From Arthrobacter endolithicus (GTDB lineage: Bacteria; Actinomycetota; Actinomycetes; Actinomycetales; Micrococcaceae): a DNA stretch of 64,000 nucleotides. The notes under the pieces were generated by a model. That model searched no databases and was not told the origin of the DNA. It worked only from the letters and a program-made list of their open reading frames with translations. A program made the translations under genes and the position numbers. Every line of letters begins with the position of its first letter. Positions within the stretch are counted from its first letter, which is position 1. Below are positions 13,751 to 45,936 of the stretch, one piece after another. Where the stretch lies: NCBI RefSeq assembly GCF_026627425.1, contig NZ_JAPNLH010000008.1, positions 1 through 64,000 on the forward strand, read 5' to 3'.

Positions 13751-14671
13751 ATGCATACCGCTACCGCCATCCGGGATACCCAAGACGCCGGAGGTGAAGA
13801 CAGACCGGCCGATCCTCAACAGGACACAGGACGGGCACCTGCAGTCCAAGCGGAGGTCGCACGTTCCTGGCTGCTGGTCCCCGCAACCCGGCCGGAAATT
13901 TTCGGTGACGCTGCGGCATCACCCGCGGACGCCGTCGTTCTGGATATTGAAGATGCGGTCGACCCTGGTAAAAAGCCGGAAGCCCGGGAGACTGTATCCC
14001 GCTGGCTTCACAACGGCGGCCAGGCGTGGGTGCGTGTCAATGATGCAGCCTCGGCTTTCTGGGCAGACGATCTGGCCGCTCTCAGGGATGCGCCCGGACT
14101 GCTCGGAGTGATGCTTGCGAAGACTGAGACCCCCGAACAGGTCTCCACCACCTTTGACCGTCTCGGTGGTAAGCACCGCATTGTGGCCCTCGTTGAATCC
14201 GCCTACGGCATCGAGGAAGCGACGCGCATTGCCCGCGCACATGGGGCCTTCCGTCTGGCTTTTGGCAGCGGCGACTTCCGCCGCGACACCGGCATGAGCG
14301 CGGACCGGGAGGCGATGGCGTACCCGCGGGCGAAGCTGGTCGTGGCCAGCCGCGCCGGTAATCTCCCCGGCCCTATTGACGGCCCGACGGTGGGAACCAG
14401 TCGCCCGATTCTCCGCGAGCAGTCGGGAATCACCGTGCTGATGGGAATGACGGGCAAACTCTGCCTTTCAGCTGATCAGGCTCCGGTGATCAACGAGGTC
14501 ATCAGCCCCACGCCGACGGACATTGACTGGGCATGTGACTTCCTGGCCGATTTCGATGCCCGCGGCGGGATTATCCGCGACGGAAGCGACCTGCCCAGAA
14601 TCGGCCGCGCACGCAAAATCCTCACGCTGGCCAGCGCTCTGGGGCTTCAGCGGGCGCGCACGGCTGAGTAG
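13751..14671 (+). CDS. CitE-like CoA ester lyase (HpcH/HpaI aldolase family)
   Basis: A 306-residue TIM-barrel protein of the citrate-lyase beta/malyl-CoA lyase family. Visible family residues are the N-terminal WLLVPATRPE, the metal/acyl region VLDIEDAVDP, VRVN (Arg), the Glu in ALVESAYGIEEA and the Asp in GSGDFRRD. The first 35 residues are an extra low-complexity extension, so the true start may be later. No lyase alpha or acyl-carrier subunit is near, so it is not citrate lyase; it could cleave or form malyl-, citramalyl- or similar CoA esters, or hydrolyse malyl-CoA. The shared operator links it to glyoxylate metabolism. Confidence 0.85.
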   Translation: MHTATAIRDTQDAGGEDRPADPQQDTGRAPAVQAEVARSWLLVPATRPEIFGDAAASPADAVVLDIEDAVDPGKKPEARETVSRWLHNGGQAWVRVNDAASAFWADDLAALRDAPGLLGVMLAKTETPEQVSTTFDRLGGKHRIVALVESAYGIEEATRIARAHGAFRLAFGSGDFRRDTGMSADREAMAYPRAKLVVASRAGNLPGPIDGPTVGTSRPILREQSGITVLMGMTGKLCLSADQAPVINEVISPTPTDIDWACDFLADFDARGGIIRDGSDLPRIGRARKILTLASALGLQRARTAE

Positions 14672-15848: not shown

Positions 15849-16361
15849 ATGTTGCTTGATCAACTGACCCTTGAGCAATTCAATCGGTTACAGCCTGCAG
15901 AGGCGGTAGCCGTGCTCCGCCCCTGTATTGACGTTCCACGGTGGATCGAGGAGATCGCCCGGGCGCGGCCCTTCACGAGCATCGAAGCGTTGCTGGAGTG
16001 TGCCGGCAAGGCTGCCGACCCGTTCGCCGAGGCGGAGATCGAGTCCGCACTGGCCCACCATCCCCGGATAGGTGAACGTGCCGCCGGCAGCAACGCCGAA
16101 GCCGCCCTCTCCCGCTCCGAACAAGCGGCACTCGGTCACACCGATGCACAGGTGGCAGCAGAGCTCGTGGCGGGAAACCGGGCCTATGAGGAAAAATTCG
16201 GCCGGGTCTTCCTGATCCGCGCTGCCGGCAGGAGCTCAAGTGAAATCCTGGCCGTCCTCAAGGAGCGGCTGGAGAATACCCCCGAAACCGAGAATCCGAT
16301 CGTTGCCCAGCAGCTGCGCGAAATCGCCCTGCTGCGGCTCAAAGGAGGAGTAACCGCGTGA
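15849..16361 (+). CDS. uraD: OHCU decarboxylase (2-oxo-4-hydroxy-4-carboxy-5-ureidoimidazoline decarboxylase)
   Basis: A 170-residue enzyme that decarboxylates OHCU to (S)-allantoin, the last step from urate. The family motif HHPRIGERAAG contains the catalytic His, and the helix with SRSEQAALG follows. It is preceded by ACGAGGTACAAGC and operator B. Its stop overlaps the uraH GTG start by four bases, so uraD, uraH and uox are translationally coupled. Confidence 0.95.
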   Translation: MLLDQLTLEQFNRLQPAEAVAVLRPCIDVPRWIEEIARARPFTSIEALLECAGKAADPFAEAEIESALAHHPRIGERAAGSNAEAALSRSEQAALGHTDAQVAAELVAGNRAYEEKFGRVFLIRAAGRSSSEILAVLKERLENTPETENPIVAQQLREIALLRLKGGVTA

Positions 16362-16699
16362 GCGTCTCCCATGTGACCACCCACATTCTGGATACCGCAG
16401 CCGGCACGCCGGCTGCAGGTGTCGCCGTCGAGCTTTACGCCCGCGACGGTGACACTTGGTCCACGATTGCGACGGGCAAAACCGATGCTGACGGGCGGGT
16501 GAAAGACCTTGGCCCCGAGCGGCTTGCTTCCGGAGATTACCGGCTGCACTTCGCCACTGGGCCCTACTTCGCCGGCATCAAAACGGACACCTTCTTCCCG
16601 GAGGTTGTGCTGACATTCACTGTCGCCCAGAGCGAGGCGCACTATCACGTGCCGCTGCTGCTCAGTCCATTCGCCTATTCAACGTACAGAGGAAACTAA
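16358..16699 (+). CDS. uraH: 5-hydroxyisourate hydrolase
   Basis: A 113-residue transthyretin-like enzyme that hydrolyses 5-hydroxyisourate to OHCU. Family marks are the N-terminal HVTTHILDTAAG with the active-site His, and the C-terminal signature YRGN at the very end. It starts at a GTG with AAAGGAGG upstream and overlaps uraD. Confidence 0.95.
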   Translation: MSVSHVTTHILDTAAGTPAAGVAVELYARDGDTWSTIATGKTDADGRVKDLGPERLASGDYRLHFATGPYFAGIKTDTFFPEVVLTFTVAQSEAHYHVPLLLSPFAYSTYRGN

Positions 16700-16701
16700 T
16701 C

Positions 16702-17601
16702 ATGAGCAGCAACAAAATCATTCTCGGCGCTAACCAGTTCGGCAAGGCGGAGGTCCGCCTGGTCAAGGTCACCCGCGACACGGACCGCCACGAGATCGAA
16801 GACCTCAACGTCACCTCCGAGCTGCGCGGGGACTTCGAGGCAGCCCATCTGCAGGGCGACAACGCGCACGTAGTCCCGACGGACACGCAGAAGAACACGG
16901 TCTACGCCTTTGCCCGTGACGGCGTGGGCTCCCCGGAGAATTTCCTGCTCCGCCTGGCCGAGCACTTCACCTCCAGCTTTGAATGGGTTGACGGTGGCCG
17001 GTGGGCCGCTGAGTCCTACAGCTGGGACCGCATCCAGGCCCATGGCTCGGCGCACAATCACTCGTTCGTCAAGAACGGATCGGAAACCCGCACCGCCGTC
17101 GTCGTCAAGGACGGCGACGATGTCCAGGTTCTGGGCGGCCTGAAGGGCCTGACGGTCCTGAAAACCACTCAGTCCGGCTTCGAGGGCTTCCCGGTGGATA
17201 AATACACCACCTTGGCTGAGACCAGCGAGCGGATCCTGGCGACCGATGTTGCAGCCCGGTGGCGTTACAACACGACCGACGTGGACTTCAACAAGTCATA
17301 CGACGATGTCAAAGCCCTGCTGCTGGAAGCGTTCACGGAGGACTACTCCACCGCCCTCCAGAACACCTTGTTCGGAATGGGAAAGAAGGTCCTCGAGGCC
17401 CACCCGGAAGTCGATGAGATCAAATTCTCCATGCCGAATAAGCACCACTTCCTCGTGGACCTGTCCCCCTTCGGGCAGGACAATCCGGACGAGGTTTTCT
17501 TCGCCGCTGACCGTCCCTACGGCCTGATCGAAGCAACGGTCCTGCGCGAAGATGCATCCGATGCAGGCCGCGCCTGGGAAGGCGTCGCCGGCTTCTGCTA
17601 G
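16702..17601 (+). CDS. uox: Urate oxidase (uricase)
   Basis: A 299-residue cofactor-free uricase that oxidises urate to 5-hydroxyisourate. The N-terminal FGKAEVRLVKV holds the catalytic Lys, the ATD motif region and the second tunnelling-fold domain (VDFNKSYDDVKALLLEAF) follow. It starts two bases after uraH in the same operon. There is no peroxisomal-type tail. Separate uraD and uraH genes mean the full urate-to-allantoin route is present. Confidence 0.96.
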   Translation: MSSNKIILGANQFGKAEVRLVKVTRDTDRHEIEDLNVTSELRGDFEAAHLQGDNAHVVPTDTQKNTVYAFARDGVGSPENFLLRLAEHFTSSFEWVDGGRWAAESYSWDRIQAHGSAHNHSFVKNGSETRTAVVVKDGDDVQVLGGLKGLTVLKTTQSGFEGFPVDKYTTLAETSERILATDVAARWRYNTTDVDFNKSYDDVKALLLEAFTEDYSTALQNTLFGMGKKVLEAHPEVDEIKFSMPNKHHFLVDLSPFGQDNPDEVFFAADRPYGLIEATVLREDASDAGRAWEGVAGFC

Positions 17602-31312: not shown

Positions 31313-32086
31313 TCAGGACGCGCGGCTGGCCTGCTCCAGGTCATCCGCGATAACGCGGGCGGCGGCGTGCAGCAGTGGAATGGCCCGGTCCGCGAAACCC
31401 TCGTCCACGCGGGAGATGGGGCCGGAAACGGAAACGGCAGTGGGTGTGGGGGCCCCGGGAATGGCCACGGCAAAGCAGCGAACGCCGATTTCCTGCTCGT
31501 TGTCATCGATGGAATACCCGCGGTCACGGATCCGCTGCAGGTCCGCGAGTAGCTCCTCGACGTTCCCGATACTCCGGTCCGTCGGTGTGGGCATGCCGGC
31601 ACGACTGACGATACCGCGTACCACTTCGTCGTCAAGCTGGGCCAAAATGGCCTTGCCCACGCCGGAATCATGGGTGTGCACACGGCGTCCCACCTCGGTG
31701 AACATCCGCATCGAGTGCGCCGACGGAACCTGGGCAATGTAGACCACCATGTCGCCGTCGAGCATCGCCATATTCGACGTCTCGCCGAGCTTTTGAACCA
31801 GTGACGCCAACTGCGGGCGCACCAGCGCACCAAACTGCTTGGTGGCGCCGTCGCCCAACCGGATCAGTCGCGGCCCCAGTGCGTAGCGCCGATTGGGCAG
31901 CTGACGTGCGTAGCCGAGCTTGACCAGCGTGCGCAGCAGCCGATGAATGGTGGGCAGCGGCAGGTCGGTGGAACCGGCCAGCTCCGAGAGCGTCACTTCA
32001 CCGCCGGCATCGGTGACGAGCTCCAGCAACTCGAAGACACGCTCCACGGACTGCACGCCGCCGGCAGCTTTAACAGCCATTTCCAT
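31313..32086 (-). CDS. IclR family regulator, AllR-like
   Basis: A 257-residue regulator with an N-terminal winged helix (LTLSEL to GYARQL, about residues 5-70) and the IclR effector domain (residues 85-250, including GVRCFAVAIPG). ATG 32086 follows ACAGGAGA; the longer frame to 32122 lacks a ribosome site. It lies between guaD and the divergent malic-enzyme operon and is the only regulator inside the purine island. E. coli AllR of this family responds to glyoxylate and allantoin, so a glyoxylate-sensing repressor is a reasonable proposal. Confidence 0.9.
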   Translation of the reverse strand: MEMAVKAAGGVQSVERVFELLELVTDAGGEVTLSELAGSTDLPLPTIHRLLRTLVKLGYARQLPNRRYALGPRLIRLGDGATKQFGALVRPQLASLVQKLGETSNMAMLDGDMVVYIAQVPSAHSMRMFTEVGRRVHTHDSGVGKAILAQLDDEVVRGIVSRAGMPTPTDRSIGNVEELLADLQRIRDRGYSIDDNEQEIGVRCFAVAIPGAPTPTAVSVSGPISRVDEGFADRAIPLLHAAARVIADDLEQASRAS

Positions 32087-32206
32087 CGTCTCCTGTGACT
32101 CTCTGTCAGTAAAGTTTGACAAAAATTATCCGCATCGCGGAAGGTTTGCCCTGTTGTCCCAAGATACCGCACCCGCGGACTGCGCGGGTGATATATGAGG
32201 AGGGGA

Positions 32207-32299: not shown

Positions 32300-33688
32300 A
32301 TGGCGACTCCCAGTCCCGGAAATTCGATCACCCTGCGCGTCGAGGCGCCGTCCAGCTTCACAGCGACCAGTGAGCTGACCGCCGCGGTTGCCGCTGTCGG
32401 CGCGGCCGTCACCGCGCTGGACGTCACGGAATCCCACCACGAACGCCTTGTCGTTGACGTCACCTGCAACACCACCGACGATGCGCACGCCGTCCGCGTG
32501 AAGGATGCGTTGAACGCGCTCGACGGCGTCACCGTCCGCAAGGTCTCCGACCGCACCTTTTTGATGCACCTGGGCGGCAAACTCGAGGTCGTCCCGAAGG
32601 TAGCCCTGCGCAACCGGGACGACCTGTCCCGTGCTTACACGCCCGGCGTCGCCCGCGTCTGCATGGCAATCGCCGAAGACCCCAGCGCCGCCCGGAATCT
32701 GACCATCAAGCGCAACACAATTGCCGTCGTCACTGATGGCTCCGCCGTCCTCGGCCTGGGCAACATTGGCCCCGCCGCGGCGCTGCCGGTGATGGAGGGT
32801 AAGGCGGCGCTGTTCAAGCAGTTCGCCAACGTTGATGCGTGGCCGGTCTGCCTGGATACGCAGGACACCGAAGAGATCATCATGATCGTCAAGGCGCTGG
32901 CCCCGGTTTACGGCGGCGTCAATCTGGAAGACATCGCGGCCCCGCGCTGCTTTGAAATTGAAAAGCGCCTCCGCGACGAGCTCGACATCCCGGTCTTCCA
33001 CGATGACCAGCACGGCACCGCCATTGTTACCCTCGCCGCGCTGACCAACGCGCTGCGCGTGGTGGATAAGAAGATCGGCGACGTCAAGATTGTGGTGGCC
33101 GGCGTGGGTGCGGCAGGGAATGCCATCATCCAGCTGCTGATCGCCCAAGGCGCTGTCAATGTTATCGCCTGCGGACGCAAGGGAGCCATCAACCGCAGCG
33201 AAACCTATACGGACACGCACCGAACCTGGTTGGCCGAGAACACCAACCCGGACAACTTCACCGGCACCCTGCACGAGGCAGTGGCCGGCGCGGACGTCTT
33301 CATCGGGGTCAGCGGCCCGAACGTCCTGGGCGAGGAGCAGGTCGCCTCGATGGCAGAAAATTCCATCATCTTCGCGATGGCCAACCCGACACCCGAGGTG
33401 GATCCGGCCATCGCGTCCAAGTACGCCGCCGTCGTCGCCACCGGCCGCAGCGACTTCCCCAATCAGATCAATAACGTGCTGGCCTTCCCCGGATTCTTCC
33501 GCGGCCTGCTCGATGCCGGCGTTTCCGACATCACCGATGAAATGCTGGTGGCCGCAGCAGGTGCAATTGCCGCCCGTGTAGCCGATGATGAACTGAACGC
33601 CAGCTTCATTGTGCCGAGCGTTTTTGATCACCAGGTGGCCGGTGACGTAGCAACGGCCGTAGCTACCGCTGCCGGGCACCACTCTTAG
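32300..33688 (+). CDS. NAD(P)-dependent malic enzyme with N-terminal ACT-like domain
   Basis: A 462-residue enzyme that decarboxylates malate to pyruvate. Residues 1-85 form an ACT-like regulatory domain; the catalytic part carries Tyr in SRAYTPGV, Lys in GKAALFKQF, metal ligands in [11 protein letters not shown] and the Rossmann [22 protein letters not shown] precedes the ATG. It heads the operon malic enzyme-aceB-DUF6986-allE. With malate synthase and AceE it can regenerate acetyl-CoA from malate. Confidence 0.94.
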
Positions 33689-33703: not shown

Positions 33704-35320
33704 ATGACTTCCGCACCAACCCCCATGCTTATCCTTTCCGACGCGCATCCGATTGACCGCGCCGAGGAAATCCTCACCCCGGAGGCGCTGGCCTTCATCG
33801 AAGAGCTAAACCGGCGCTTCGCCCCCGCCCGCAAGGAACGCATGACCGACCGCGCCGCCAAGCGCGAGCAGGTGGCCCGGACCGGCAAACTCGATTTCCT
33901 GCCCGAGACCGCAGACGTCCGCGCCGGCGACTGGAAGGTTGCCGTCGCGCCCGCCGCATTGCAGGACCGCCGGGTGGAAATGACCGGGCCTGCGTCGCCG
34001 GCCAAAATGGCCATCAACGCGCTCAATTCCGGCGCCAAGGTCTGGCTCGCGGACCTCGAAGATGCCAGCACACCGACCTGGCCCAACGTCGTCGACGCGG
34101 TGCTGAACCTGCGCGACGCCGCCGCCGGAACGCTGAGCTACACCTCGCCGGAGGGCAAGGAGTACCGGCTGCGCACCGATGCGCCGCTGGCGACCGTGAT
34201 CGCCCGCCCCCGCGGCTGGCACATGGACGAGCGGCATGTCATGGTCGACGGCGAACCGGCCGTGGCCGCGCTGGTGGACTTTGGCCTGCTCTTCTTCCAC
34301 ACCGCCAAGCTGCAGCTGGCCAATGGCGCCGGCCCGTACTACTACCTGCCGAAGATGGAAAGCTATCTGGAGGCCCGGCTGTGGAACGAGGTCTTCGTCT
34401 TTGCACAGGATTACCTGGGCGTGCCACAGGGCACCATCCGGGCGACCATGCTGATCGAGACCATCCCCGCAGCCTTTGAGATGGACGAAATCCTCTACGA
34501 ACTGCGCGACCACGCCTCCGGGCTGAACGCCGGCCGCTGGGACTACCTGTTCTCCATCATCAAGTACTTCCGCGACGCCGGCGAAGCCTTCACCCTGCCG
34601 GACCGTGCACAGATCACCATGACGGCGCCGTTCATGCGCGCCTACACCGAGCTGCTCGTGAAGACCTGCCACCACCGCGGCGCTTTCGCCATGGGCGGCA
34701 TGGCGGCGGTCATCCCGAACCGGCGCGAGCCCGAAGTCACGGCCGCAGCCTTTGACAAGGTCCGCGCCGACAAGACGCGCGAGGCCAACGACGGCTTTGA
34801 CGGCTCCTGGGTTGCACACCCGGACCTGGTCCCGGTGTGCAAGGAGGTCTTCGACTCCGTGCTGGGCGATCGGCCCAACCAGCTGGACAAGCAGCGCCCC
34901 GAGGTCACCGTTACTGCCGACCAGCTGCTGGACATCTCCTCCGCAGCCGGCCAGGCCACCGAAGCGGGCCTGCGCCTGAACCTCTACGTCGCCGTGGCCT
35001 ACACGGCCGTGTGGACCTCGGGCAACGGTGCGGTCGCCATCCATAACCTCATGGAAGATGCCGCCACAGCGGAAATCTCCCGTTCGCAGGTCTGGCAGCA
35101 GATCCGCAACGGCGTGGTGCTCACCGACACCGGCAACACCGTCACCCGTGAGCTTGTCACCCGCATCCTGGCCGAAGAGACCGAGAAACTGCGCGGCGAG
35201 GTCGGCGAGGAAAGCTTCCAGAAGCATTACAAGGCCGCCAGTAAGCTCATCGGGGACATCTGCCTGTCGGAGGACTACACCGACTTCCTGACCATCCCCG
35301 CCTACGAACTGGTGGGCTAG
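33704..35320 (+). CDS. aceB: Malate synthase A
   Basis: A 538-residue A-isoform malate synthase condensing glyoxylate and acetyl-CoA. Landmarks are the active-site strand LADLEDASTPTW, ARPRGWHM, and the metal-binding LIETIPAAFEMDEILYELR. It starts 15 bp after malic enzyme. No isocitrate lyase is in the window, so here it probably serves purine-derived glyoxylate. Confidence 0.95.
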   Translation: MTSAPTPMLILSDAHPIDRAEEILTPEALAFIEELNRRFAPARKERMTDRAAKREQVARTGKLDFLPETADVRAGDWKVAVAPAALQDRRVEMTGPASPAKMAINALNSGAKVWLADLEDASTPTWPNVVDAVLNLRDAAAGTLSYTSPEGKEYRLRTDAPLATVIARPRGWHMDERHVMVDGEPAVAALVDFGLLFFHTAKLQLANGAGPYYYLPKMESYLEARLWNEVFVFAQDYLGVPQGTIRATMLIETIPAAFEMDEILYELRDHASGLNAGRWDYLFSIIKYFRDAGEAFTLPDRAQITMTAPFMRAYTELLVKTCHHRGAFAMGGMAAVIPNRREPEVTAAAFDKVRADKTREANDGFDGSWVAHPDLVPVCKEVFDSVLGDRPNQLDKQRPEVTVTADQLLDISSAAGQATEAGLRLNLYVAVAYTAVWTSGNGAVAIHNLMEDAATAEISRSQVWQQIRNGVVLTDTGNTVTRELVTRILAEETEKLRGEVGEESFQKHYKAASKLIGDICLSEDYTDFLTIPAYELVG

Positions 35321-35322
35321 GG

Positions 35323-36591
35323 ATGACGGAAACCCAATCACTGACAGCGGCGGACTTGGCGCACATCGACGCTTCCTGCGCCGCCACGGACCAGTTACTT
35401 GACCGCAACTACCCGGGCGACGACGGCACCCGCCAGCCCGTGCACACCGTGTACGTGCCGGCGGATAAGTTCACCACCACCTTTGCCGCCGACTGGGGCG
35501 CACAGGGCCTTGAGGCGATCAACAACGCCGGCGGACTCGAGCGCCTCGGCGCGCTGCTGGGGCAAGACGGGGAACTGGCTGCGGCCGTGGCTCCCCGGGT
35601 TGCCGCCAAGCTGGCGAACGAACCGATTGAGGACCTGCGCCTGGACTTTGAGGACGGCTTTGGCAACCGCGGCGACGACGTCGAGGATGCCGCCGCCGTG
35701 ACGGCCGCCAAGACTGTCAGCGCAGCCGTAGCCGCGGGGACGGCTCCGCCGTTCGTAGGCATCCGCTTCAAGTGCTTCGAGGCTCCGACCCGGGCCCGCG
35801 GCGTGCGCACCCTGGACCTCTTCGTCTCCACCCTGGCTCAGGCGGGGGAACTCCCCGACGGCCTGGTGCTGACGCTGCCGAAGGTGACCACGGTCGACCA
35901 GGTCAAGGCCATGGACTTCGCCGTAGGCCGTTTGGAGGAAATCCACGGACTGCCTGCCGGACGCCTGCGCTTTGAGGTGCAGGTGGAAACCCCGCAGCTC
36001 ATTTTGGGCCCGGACGGCACCTCCCCCGTGGCGCAGCTGCCCCACGTGGTCCCCGGACGCATCAGTGGCCTGCACTACGGGACCTACGACTACAGCGCCT
36101 CGCTGGAGATCTCCGCCCAGTACCAGTCCATGGAGCACCCGGTGGCGGACTTCGCCAAGGAGATCATGCAGCTGGCCGTGGCCGGAACGGGCATCCGCCT
36201 CTCCGACGGCTCCACGAACATCATGCCGATCGGCGACGGCGCCGACGCGGCCTGGGCACTGCACGGCCGGCTGGTCCGCCGCTCGCTGGAACGCGGCTAC
36301 TACCAGGGCTGGGACCTGAACCCCGCCCAGCTGCCGAGCCGTTTCAGCGCCACGTACGCGTTCTACCGCGAAGGCCTTCCGGCAGCCGCCGTGCGCCTGC
36401 GCAATTACGTCCAGCAGACCCCGGGCGCCGTCATGGACGAACCGGCCACGGCACGCGCCCTGGCCAACTTCATCCTGCGCGGTCTGGTCTGCGGCGCCGC
36501 CGGCGCCGAGGAAGTACTGGCCCAGACGAGCCTTGACCAAACCCAACTGACAGCGCTGGCCCACCCGCGGCTCGCCACCGTCTCTCACTGA
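35323..36591 (+). CDS. DUF6986 family protein, CitE/malate-synthase-like aldolase fold
   Basis: A 422-residue soluble protein I place in DUF6986. It has the residue pattern of the HpcH/CitE/malate synthase barrel: LRLDFEDGFGNR, an Arg in IRFKCFEAP, the Glu in FEVQVETPQLIL and the Asp in LHYGTYDYSASLEIS. It starts two bases after the aceB stop and ends 11 bases before allE, so it is tightly coupled to glyoxylate and ureidoglycine metabolism. No reaction is established. Candidate roles are cleavage or condensation of a glyoxylate-derived C-C bond, or a ureidoglycolate step missing from the window (inference). Confidence 0.8.
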   Translation: MTETQSLTAADLAHIDASCAATDQLLDRNYPGDDGTRQPVHTVYVPADKFTTTFAADWGAQGLEAINNAGGLERLGALLGQDGELAAAVAPRVAAKLANEPIEDLRLDFEDGFGNRGDDVEDAAAVTAAKTVSAAVAAGTAPPFVGIRFKCFEAPTRARGVRTLDLFVSTLAQAGELPDGLVLTLPKVTTVDQVKAMDFAVGRLEEIHGLPAGRLRFEVQVETPQLILGPDGTSPVAQLPHVVPGRISGLHYGTYDYSASLEISAQYQSMEHPVADFAKEIMQLAVAGTGIRLSDGSTNIMPIGDGADAAWALHGRLVRRSLERGYYQGWDLNPAQLPSRFSATYAFYREGLPAAAVRLRNYVQQTPGAVMDEPATARALANFILRGLVCGAAGAEEVLAQTSLDQTQLTALAHPRLATVSH

Positions 36592-36602
36592 AGGATTCAC
36601 TG

Positions 36603-37415
36603 ATGGGCAAGTACTACTACCCCGAGGGCGGCCTGCCGCCGCAAACACACCTCACCACCGAACGCGCCATCGTCAAGGAGGCCTACACGGTCATCCCCAA
36701 GGGCGTGCTGACGGACATCGTCACGAGCAACCTCCCGGGATTCACCAACACCCGGTCCTGGATCATCGCCCGTCCGATCTCCGGCTTCGCCACCACCTTC
36801 TCCCAGCTGATTGTGGAGATCGGTGCAGGCGGCGGCTCCGAGAAGCCCGAGCAGGAGGCCGGCGTCGAAGGCGTCATCTTCGTCACCAAGGGGAAGGTCA
36901 ACCTGACCCTCGAGGGCGAGCTGCACCAGCTGGAGGAAGGCGGCTACGCCTACCTGGCCGCCGGTGACGCTTGGAGCCTGGAGAACGTCTCGGAGGACAT
37001 CGTCTCCTTCCACTGGATCCGCAAGGCCTACGAGCGTCTTGAGGGCTACGAGGCCAAGTCCTTCGTCACTAGCGACGCCGAGGTGGCGCCCAACGAGATG
37101 CCCGACGTCGACGGCGTCTGGAAGACCACCCGCTTCGCTGACCCGAACGATCTGGCCCACGATATGCACGTGAACATCGTGACGTTCCAGCCCGGCGGAG
37201 TGATCCCCTTCCCGGAGACCCACGTGATGGAGCACGGCCTGTACGTGCTCGAGGGCAAGGCCATGTATCTGCTCAACAACGACTGGGTCGAGGTTGAGGC
37301 GGGCGACTTCATGTGGCTGCGTGCCTTCTGCCCGCAGGCCTGCTACGCGGGCGGCCCCGGCCAGTTCCGCTACCTGCTGTACAAGGACGTCAACCGCCAG
37401 ATCCGCCTGACGTAA
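36603..37415 (+). CDS. allE: (S)-ureidoglycine aminohydrolase
   Basis: A 270-residue bicupin that converts (S)-ureidoglycine to (S)-ureidoglycolate and ammonia. The C-terminal cupin has the metal set in PFPETHVMEHGLYVLEG (Glu, two His) and the Gln of FCPQACYAGG; the first cupin lies at about 60-135. Length equals the E. coli enzyme. Last gene of the operon, followed by a large palindrome. The product would need ureidoglycolate lyase or dehydrogenase, not found nearby. Confidence 0.92.
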   Translation: MGKYYYPEGGLPPQTHLTTERAIVKEAYTVIPKGVLTDIVTSNLPGFTNTRSWIIARPISGFATTFSQLIVEIGAGGGSEKPEQEAGVEGVIFVTKGKVNLTLEGELHQLEEGGYAYLAAGDAWSLENVSEDIVSFHWIRKAYERLEGYEAKSFVTSDAEVAPNEMPDVDGVWKTTRFADPNDLAHDMHVNIVTFQPGGVIPFPETHVMEHGLYVLEGKAMYLLNNDWVEVEAGDFMWLRAFCPQACYAGGPGQFRYLLYKDVNRQIRLT

Positions 37416-41602: not shown

Positions 41603-43393
<1,791 letters not shown>

Positions 43394-43402
43394 GAGAAAA
43401 CC

Positions 43403-44584
43403 ATGCGCATTGTCATAGCCCCGGATAAATTCAAGGGTTCACTCTCCGCGCCGGAGGTGGCCGCGCATCTGGCCGCCGGTCTGCTGGCCGCGGAGCCGGG
43501 GCTGACAGTGGAGCAGATTCCAGTGGCCGACGGCGGCGAGGGGACTTTGGACGCCGCCGTCGCCTCCGGCTTCACCCGCCGGAGTGTGACGGTGGCCGGG
43601 CCAACGGGCCGCCCGATCACCGCGGACTTTGCGGTCCGCGGTCATCAGGCGGTCATCGAAATGGCAGTGGCCTCCGGGCTCGCCGTGCTCCATAACGGCG
43701 AACTGTCGGCACTGACCGCCACCAGCCGTGGCACCGGAGACCTGATCCGGGCCGCCCTGGATGCCGGGTGCACGGACATTGTCCTCGGCGTGGGCGGCAG
43801 CGCCTGCACCGACGGCGGCGCCGGACTTCTCAGCGCCCTGGGCGTGAAACTGCTGGACGAACGCGGGCAGAAATTGCCCGACGGCGGCGGCGCCCTGGCG
43901 CAGTTGGCCGAAGTTGGCGTCTGCGGGCTGGACCCGAGGCTGGCAACGGCAACCATCGTGTTGGCCAGCGACGTGGACAATCCGCTGCTCGGGCCAAACG
44001 GTGCTGCGGAAATCTTCGGCCCGCAAAAGGGTGCCTCACCGGCGGATGTGCTGGCGCTCGAACACGGTCTGGAATGCTATTTCCGGCTGCTCTCCAACGC
44101 CATCGGCACCCATGCCGTCACCAGCTCCGATGCTCCGGGAGCGGGCGCCGCCGGAGGTGTGGGCTACGCCGCCCTGGCCGTTCTGGGCGCGGAGCGCCGC
44201 CCCGGCATCGATGTGGTTTTGGACTTCACCGGCCTGGACGGCAGAATTGCAGGGGCGGATCTGGTCATCACCGGCGAGGGCAGCCTGGATGGGCAAAGCC
44301 TGGGCGGCAAAACGCCGATGGGCGTGGCGCAGGCGGCCGCGCGCGCCGGCATTCCTGTAATCGCCGTCTGCGGCCGCACCACCCTTGATCAGGACACGCT
44401 CTCCAGTGCCGGGTTTGCCAAAACGTATGCCTTGACCGACCTGGAACCGGACGTCAGCATCTGCATCAGCGATGCGGCAGCCCTCCTGGAACGGCTGGGC
44501 CGGCGGATCGCTCTGGACTGGGCCGAGGGTGGATCCATCACCGCCGATCTGGGCAGCACCGCACCACGCAACCTACGACTTTGA
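43403..44584 (+). CDS. glxK: Glycerate kinase, GlxK type
   Basis: A 393-residue glycerate kinase that phosphorylates glycerate from GlxR. Family marks: [16 protein letters not shown] at the start, [24 protein letters not shown] and [15 protein letters not shown]. It begins nine bases after gcl. The product is expected to be 2-phosphoglycerate by family knowledge. Confidence 0.94.
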
Positions 44585-44601
44585 TACCAAGGAGCCCTTC
44601 C

Positions 44602-45936
44602 ATGTTTGACCTCGTCATCCGCGGCCAGCGAGTCCTCACCGGTGACGGCATAGCCGCGCGTGAGGTGGGCGTCCGCGGCGGCGTAATTGCCGCCGTCGAA
44701 CCCCTCGGTACCGGCCTTGAAGGCACCCGCAGCATCGAGCTGGCCGACGACGAAACCCTCATTCCCGGCCTGGTGGACACGCATGTGCACGTCAATGAGC
44801 CCGGCCGCACCGAGTGGGAGGGCTTCGCATCCGCCACCCGGGCCGCTGCCGCCGGCGGCGTCACCACCATCATCGACATGCCGCTGAACAGCATCCCACC
44901 AACGACGACGGCCGACGCCCTGGCGCTCAAGCGCAGCGTTGCGCGGGACCAGGCCTTCGTGGACGTCGGTTTCTGGGGCGGTGCCGTGCCCGGCAACACC
45001 GGCGATCTGCGCGGCATGCATGACGCCGGCGCGTTCGGCTTCAAATGCTTCCTGATCCACTCCGGCGTGGACGAATTCCCGCATCTGGAGCCGGCCGAGA
45101 TGGAAACGGACATGGCCGAGCTGGCGACGTTCGACTCGTTGCTGATCGTGCACGCCGAGGACTCCCGCACCATTGAGGAAGCCCCCGCGACCCCGGGCAC
45201 CCACTACAGCGATTTCCTGGCCTCCCGCCCGCGCGGAGCCGAGAACGTTGCCATCGCGGCCGTTATCGATGCCGCCCGCCGAACCGGCGCACGAGCCCAC
45301 ATTCTGCATCTGAGCTCCTCCGATGCCCTGCCGCTGATCGCCGCGGCCAAGGCCGAGGGCATCAAGCTGACCGTGGAAACCTGCCCGCATTACCTCACCC
45401 TGATGGCCGAGGAGATCCCCGACGGCGCCACCGCGTTCAAATGTTGCCCGCCGATCCGCGAAGCAGCCAACCGTGAATTGCTCTGGGCCGGGCTGCAGGA
45501 CGGCACCATCGACTGCATCGTTTCCGACCACTCCCCCAGCACCTTGGATCTCAAGGACCTGGAAAACGGCGACTTCGCCGTGGCGTGGGGCGGCGTTTCC
45601 TCGCTGCAGCTGGGACTGTCGCTGATCTGGACCGACGCCCGCGAGCGCGGCATCCCACTGGAGCAGGTCATCTCCTGGATGTCCGCAAAACCCGCCGCAC
45701 TTGCCCGGCTGGGCGCGAAGGGCCAGCTGGCAACGGGGTACGACGCCGACCTCGTGGTCTTCGCTGCCGAGGAATCCTACGTGGTGGACGTTTCCAAACT
45801 TAAGCACAAAAACCCGATCACGCCCTACGCCGGTAAAACCCTGACGGGTCTGGTCCGGAAGACCTTTTTGCGCGGGAATGAAGTGGACGGGAAAACGCCC
45901 ACCGGGAATCTGCTGTCCCTCGGGAACGTGGGCTAA
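44602..45936 (+). CDS. allB: Allantoinase
   Basis: A 444-residue cyclic amidohydrolase opening allantoin to allantoate. Metal ligands: [18 protein letters not shown], the carbamylated Lys in [26 protein letters not shown] and CIVSDHSPS. The ATG at 44602 follows AAGGAG. Last gene of the hyi operon. It links the urate operon at 15.8 kb to the glyoxylate genes. Confidence 0.95.

Follow-up and report, generated by a model that had tools for sequence, protein, structure and literature searches.

We propose that the DUF6986 protein encoded in the purine-degradation region of Arthrobacter endolithicus is very probably a ureidoglycolate lyase (EC 4.3.2.3), which replaces AllA in actinobacteria. This assignment is based on co-occurrence, gene order, a shared operator, the predicted fold and a conserved metal site. 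DUF6986 would probably also represent a new, non-homologous family of ureidoglycolate lyases and, within the CitE/malate-synthase superfamily, the first C-N lyase, acting through an aza-analogue of the malyl-CoA lyase reaction as the usual final enzyme of purine breakdown in Actinomycetes. The whole stretch of DNA that was analysed, 64,000 nucleotides and referred to here as the window, is a purine-degradation region. A divergent IclR-type regulator gene is followed by the genes for malic enzyme, malate synthase and DUF6986, by allE and then by hyi, glxR, gcl, a glycerate kinase gene and allB. The window also contains xanthine dehydrogenase genes and, by sequence reading, a permease gene. The features of the region are:

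15849 to 17601, plus strand: genes for OHCU decarboxylase, HIU hydrolase and uricase (urate to allantoin), by sequence reading; homologues recur in other loci
31313 to 32122, minus strand: IclR-type regulator gene (IclR by sequence reading), divergent from the operon; position kept in most loci
32128 to 32142, no strand assigned: candidate operator ATCCGCATCGCGGAA, one mismatch to TTCCGNNNNNCGGAA, in the gap between the regulator gene and maeA; enriched in such gaps
32300 to 33688, plus strand: malic enzyme (malate to pyruvate), encoded by the gene that opens the operon (PF00390/PF03949)
33704 to 35320, plus strand: aceB, malate synthase A, which uses up glyoxylate (TIGR01344, 748 bits)
35323 to 36591, plus strand: DUF6986 protein (PF22484), proposed ureidoglycolate lyase (PF22484 match, co-occurrence with AllE/allantoicase, CitE/malyl-CoA lyase fold)
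36603 to 37415, plus strand: allE, (S)-ureidoglycine aminohydrolase, which makes ureidoglycolate (NF008376, 487 bits, above cut-off)
41603 to 43393, plus strand: gcl, glyoxylate carboligase (TIGR01504, 1123 bits)
44581 to 45936, plus strand: allB, allantoinase (TIGR03178, 567 bits)

The open reading frame at 35323-36591 encodes a protein of 422 amino acids, which matches PF22484 with 595.5 bits against a cut-off of 27, over 397 residues and profile positions 2-407 of 408. An earlier note on this DNA had placed the gene two bases past aceB and 11 before allE and had seen Glu and Asp motifs in its product. The coordinates agree with this placement (TAG gg ATG between the aceB stop and the DUF6986 start, allE starting 11 bases 3' of the frame), and the motifs D108-x-E110-D111, E222 and D256 are present and invariant among 31 diverse members of the family. 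A Pfam scan of the protein gave neither a PF04115 (AllA cupin) nor an M20 match, and the protein stays below the cut-off of the HpcH/HpaI family PF03328 (14.8 vs 25 bits). The malate synthase A model has no significant match to it and no NCBIfam model fits, the top one being the haloarchaeal malyl-CoA lyase model NF041626 with 23 bits against a cut-off of 500. Paenarthrobacter sp. PH39-S1 encodes a 99% identical protein in an identical gene order. In deposited annotations, DUF6986 proteins are called just 'aldolase/citrate lyase family protein'. DUF6986 was not mentioned in the literature searched, which excluded most subscription journals and preprints, and targeted searches found no assignment of the family as ureidoglycolate lyase, which may nevertheless have been reported elsewhere. 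A second, ordinary CitE-like (HpcH/HpaI) protein is encoded at 13751-14671, upstream of the urate genes; its homologue lies directly 3' of allB in Microbacterium helvum and Arthrobacter sp. zg-Y238.

The enzyme expected to act after AllE is AllA (PF04115), UAH or AllD (PMC3793230). PF04115 is found neither in the window nor anywhere else in the assembled genome (99.97% complete), and no allantoicase is encoded in the whole genome either. The product of AllD is oxalurate and not glyoxylate. The sole AllC/UAH-like M20 gene found with the E. coli AllC protein as query (L147 8349-9569, contig C8) adjoins hutF and hutU. Because these neighbours code for formimidoylglutamate deiminase and urocanate hydratase, its product is, judging from gene context, probably a histidine-pathway enzyme, and on account of this location the gene was set aside as a UAH candidate. 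NCBIfam names the product allantoate amidohydrolase, a name that is probably wrong. The FAH-family protein 'UGL', annotated as ureidoglycolate lyase, was set aside as well, as its annotation has been argued to be a misassignment (PMC3793230). The remark in the earlier note that the window is without a ureidoglycolate lyase thus extends to the whole genome as far as AllA is concerned, and the check for a true ureidoglycolate lyase elsewhere in the genome yielded no AllA, allantoicase or stand-alone UAH candidate.

Two further observations concern the ureide enzymes of this strain. The AllE cupin also passes the NF040771 model 'bifunctional allantoicase/(S)-ureidoglycine aminohydrolase' (466 bits vs a cut-off of 350), and since neither an allantoicase nor a clear dedicated AllC is encoded in the genome, allantoate may be a further substrate of this cupin. 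In addition, a second allantoinase gene, 78% identical to that of the window, is located on contig C10 (L148 3384-7222), where it is preceded by NCS1 permease-like and allantoin racemase-like genes.

To follow the distribution of the family, 247 Actinomycetes genomes were all searched for DUF6986, AllA, AllE, allantoicase, glyoxylate carboligase and allantoinase. For DUF6986 an E-value of at most 1e-60 was demanded, because a looser phylum-wide search mostly gave partial matches to ordinary CitE-like proteins. DUF6986 was found in 86 genomes, AllE in 16 and allantoicase in 73. AllE and allantoicase, two unrelated enzymes that both form ureidoglycolate, never occur in the same genome of this sample. 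One or the other is present in 85 of the 86 genomes with DUF6986, and DUF6986 is present in 85 of the 89 genomes with AllE or allantoicase (phi 0.956); as the sampled genomes are related, P-values overstate independence. Counted by genus, DUF6986 tracks AllE-or-allantoicase in 36 of 37 cases spread over 18 families, with no genus showing the reverse, and within four families DUF6986 and the ureidoglycolate-forming enzyme are present or absent together. The association with gcl is much weaker (phi 0.40 vs 0.96), and gcl was rejected as an obligate partner of DUF6986. AllA reached the threshold in three of the 247 genomes, strongly in only one. The DUF6986 and AllA families hardly overlap in Actinomycetes, and genomes that form ureidoglycolate and lack AllA generally contain DUF6986. 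Seventeen genomes encode allantoinase with neither AllE nor allantoicase, and only one of them, a fragmented assembly, has DUF6986. As ureidoglycine is no intermediate under allantoicase, what the AllE and allantoicase lineages share is ureidoglycolate itself. The profile against allA and allantoicase suggested in the earlier note therefore shows DUF6986 following AllE or allantoicase, and the possibility raised there that the family is common outside purine- or glyoxylate-metabolizing genomes did not hold, the fragmented assembly being the sole exception. Of the two functions which that note had considered, a replacement ureidoglycolate lyase is strongly favoured, with several independent lines of genomic evidence and the active site in its support. 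The evidence speaks against the other, a different glyoxylate C-C bond enzyme, because DUF6986 tracks the ureidoglycolate-producing step and not the glyoxylate-using gcl.

Three genomes of one genus possess allantoicase and neither DUF6986 nor AllA, and a further genome shows just a fragment of DUF6986, close to the edge of a contig. Because of these three genomes, the lyase may be dispensable or replaced in that genus. In Nocardia farcinica, the genes for DUF6986, allantoicase and puuE lie in a row, an arrangement suggesting that the loss of DUF6986 in the genus may be secondary. A PuuE-type allantoinase gene adjoins the allantoicase gene in the genus, and in one of the three loci a urease operon is close by.

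Gene order was counted in 92 scored loci, of which 80 are named and the others come from regions of further genomes. Directly downstream of DUF6986 lies allE in 69 of them; on the upstream side, aceB is found in 50 and the malic enzyme gene in 10. As the aceB-DUF6986-allE order recurs in many genera, the arrangement in the window is not due to chance. In loci of Microbacterium, Gordonia and Mycolicibacterium, DUF6986-allE is retained with aceB missing from the vicinity, and an adjacent malate synthase was rejected as a requirement. In the allantoicase lineages, DUF6986 is usually a neighbour of allantoicase or allantoinase. The order aceB-allB-allantoicase-DUF6986 is found in two genomes of 1.5 Mb, in one case with the malic enzyme gene in front; for their route from allantoin to malate to be complete, DUF6986 would have to split ureidoglycolate. 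In Gordonia polyisoprenivorans VH2, the DUF6986 gene of plasmid p174 is located directly upstream of a urease operon, which suggests that urea is its product. On a Tsukamurella plasmid, it abuts the gene of a cupin annotated as bifunctional allantoicase/(S)-ureidoglycine aminohydrolase. The gammaproteobacterium Aeromonas cavernicola carries an iclR-aceB-DUF6986-allE-hyi-glxR-gcl block, which was apparently acquired from an actinobacterium.

In putative Streptomyces genomes of 6-11 Mb, DUF6986 lies outside the purine cluster, with the same neighbours as at the Streptomyces fildesensis locus. A search for common words in the purine promoters of these genomes yielded TTCCGCTTTACGGAAA, a near copy of which is found upstream of DUF6986. 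Of ten putative Streptomyces genomes, six have the exact palindrome TTCCGNNNNNCGGAA a short way upstream of DUF6986 and two others a one-mismatch copy there; the palindrome is also present upstream of gcl and in the gap between the regulator gene and allB. Each of these genomes has 8-21 copies, compared with 1-5 for the reversed control. In other genera, copies of the palindrome with no more than one mismatch are present in 27 of the 63 gaps that separate iclR from the DUF6986 operon, vs 1.6% of background stretches. Recurring at the purine-gene promoters of many actinobacterial genera, it looks like a conserved operator of a purine regulon.

The AlphaFold model of the DUF6986 protein has a pLDDT of 89, and its best PDB matches are all CitE-like proteins, malyl-CoA lyases, citramalyl-CoA lyase or malate synthases, with E-values down to 4e-9. 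The protein is hence predicted to fold as a TIM barrel of the CitE-like/malyl-CoA lyase/malate synthase superfamily. A phmmer search of the PDB with a single DUF6986 protein gave chance matches only, and the relationship emerged from a profile search: the DUF6986 profile aligns with the Rhodobacter sphaeroides malyl-CoA lyase 4l9y (E 3e-4), and hhalign pairs DUF6986 with CitE-like proteins at a probability of 98.8. In malyl-CoA lyase, Mg2+ is bound by Glu141 and Asp168 and its waters by Glu44 and Asp45; Arg76 is oriented by Asp42, and the lid residue Asp299 serves the acyl carbon (PMC3832036). The counterparts of the metal-site residues and of Arg76 are all invariant in the 31 diverse DUF6986 members. 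At the lid position, D372 is invariant and E373 is conserved in at least 90% of these members; hhalign sets E373 opposite the CitE Asp, a shift by one residue, and either of the two is a candidate for the lid acid. The residues are encoded as follows:

35644 to 35655, plus strand: D108-x-E110-D111 motif, equivalent to Asp42/Glu44/Asp45 of R. sphaeroides malyl-CoA lyase; aligned with CitE-like DLED
35764 to 35766, plus strand: R148, equivalent to the substrate-binding Arg76; aligned with the Arg of CitE VRVN
35986 to 35988, plus strand: E222, predicted Mg2+ ligand (Glu141 of malyl-CoA lyase); aligned to 4l9y
36088 to 36090, plus strand: D256, predicted Mg2+ ligand (Asp168 of malyl-CoA lyase); aligned to 4l9y
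36436 to 36441, plus strand: D372-E373, candidate lid acid (Asp299 of malyl-CoA lyase), from conservation and hhalign

Malyl-CoA is HOOC-CH(OH)-CH2-CO-SCoA and ureidoglycolate is HOOC-CH(OH)-NH-CO-NH2. The Mg2+-binding halves of the two molecules are identical, and the bond that is broken leads to CH2 in one and to NH in the other. As ureidoglycolate is thus an aza-analogue of malyl-CoA, a C-N cleavage of the retro-aldol type would be chemically natural. We hypothesize that Mg2+, held by E222 and D256 and with its waters on E110 and D111, chelates the carboxylate and the alpha-hydroxyl of (S)-ureidoglycolate. R148, oriented by D108, would accept the hydroxyl proton, and the C-N bond would be cleaved in the way the C-C bond is in malyl-CoA lyase, as an aza-version of the retro-aldol reaction. 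The lid acid (D372 or E373) would protonate the leaving urea, so that the products would be urea and Mg2+-bound glyoxylate. Malate synthase and malic enzyme, or alternatively glyoxylate carboligase, could then take over the glyoxylate. The reactions known from the superfamily are C-C and thioester chemistry on CoA compounds, and it is not known to include a C-N lyase.

The proposed reaction, ureidoglycolate to glyoxylate and urea, is that of AllA/DAL3 (PF04115, EC 4.3.2.3), and DUF6986 would likewise follow AllE or allantoicase in the pathway. The two are unrelated in sequence and fold, AllA being a nickel-dependent cupin that releases urea (PMC3793230) and DUF6986 a predicted Mg2+ TIM barrel. 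With malyl-CoA lyase (4l9y) and the CitE-like lyases (3qqw, 3r4i and human CLYBL), DUF6986 shares the fold, the Mg2+ ligands, the substrate Arg and the DxED motif. It differs from them as a deep separate family below the PF03328 cut-off, and its proposed substrate has no CoA and is broken at a C-N bond. Malate synthase A (AceB) belongs to the same superfamily, has glyoxylate/Mg2+ chemistry and is an operon neighbour, whereas DUF6986 is proposed to make glyoxylate and not to use it.

The fold and the predicted glyoxylate/Mg2+ site would also fit a C-C bond enzyme that consumes glyoxylate. DUF6986 might then resemble malyl-CoA lyase or malate synthase, or be a new aldolase, and clear glyoxylate derived from purines, and the frequent neighbourhood of aceB would fit such a role. 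We regard this as unlikely, since the glyoxylate users aceB and often gcl are already part of the same operon, and since the family follows the formation of ureidoglycolate rather than gcl. Moreover, it would leave the cleavage of ureidoglycolate without an enzyme in nearly all these genomes.

The genomic linkage narrows the step down no further than to ureidoglycolate or the compounds next to it, and one might speculate that DUF6986 releases ammonia and carbon dioxide from ureidoglycolate in a UAH-like reaction or that its substrate is an adjacent ureide, for example allantoate. UAH (EC 3.5.3.19) shares ureidoglycolate as substrate and glyoxylate as product with the reaction proposed here and would fill the same gap (PMC3793230), but it is an M20-type hydrolase that is unrelated to DUF6986 and releases ammonia and not urea. 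As the predicted fold is a Mg2+ lyase barrel, dedicated allantoate enzymes already exist in the allantoicase lineages and the urease adjacency in Gordonia points to urea, such a reaction seems very improbable. Ureidoglycolate also decays spontaneously, and one genus manages with allantoicase in the absence of DUF6986 and AllA; hence the step might need no enzyme, or be carried out by an unrecognised M20-type UAH, with DUF6986 as an accessory or non-catalytic protein. We give this equally little credence: the catalytic residues of the superfamily metal site are all invariant, the only M20 gene of this kind that E. coli AllC retrieved from the genome sits with hutF and hutU, and both the retention of DUF6986 in the minimal operon of the 1.5 Mb genomes and its separate operator copy in putative Streptomyces argue for a needed step.

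Taken together, if DUF6986 is indeed a ureidoglycolate lyase, it would fill a gap in purine and allantoin degradation in about a third of the sampled Actinomycetes, where AllA was not found, among them relatives of Arthrobacter, mycobacteria and probable Streptomyces. It would also give a function to a DUF family so far named only after aldolases and citrate lyases. Finally, it would suggest that a C-C lyase scaffold can be converted to C-N cleavage, since ureidoglycolate mimics malyl-CoA.
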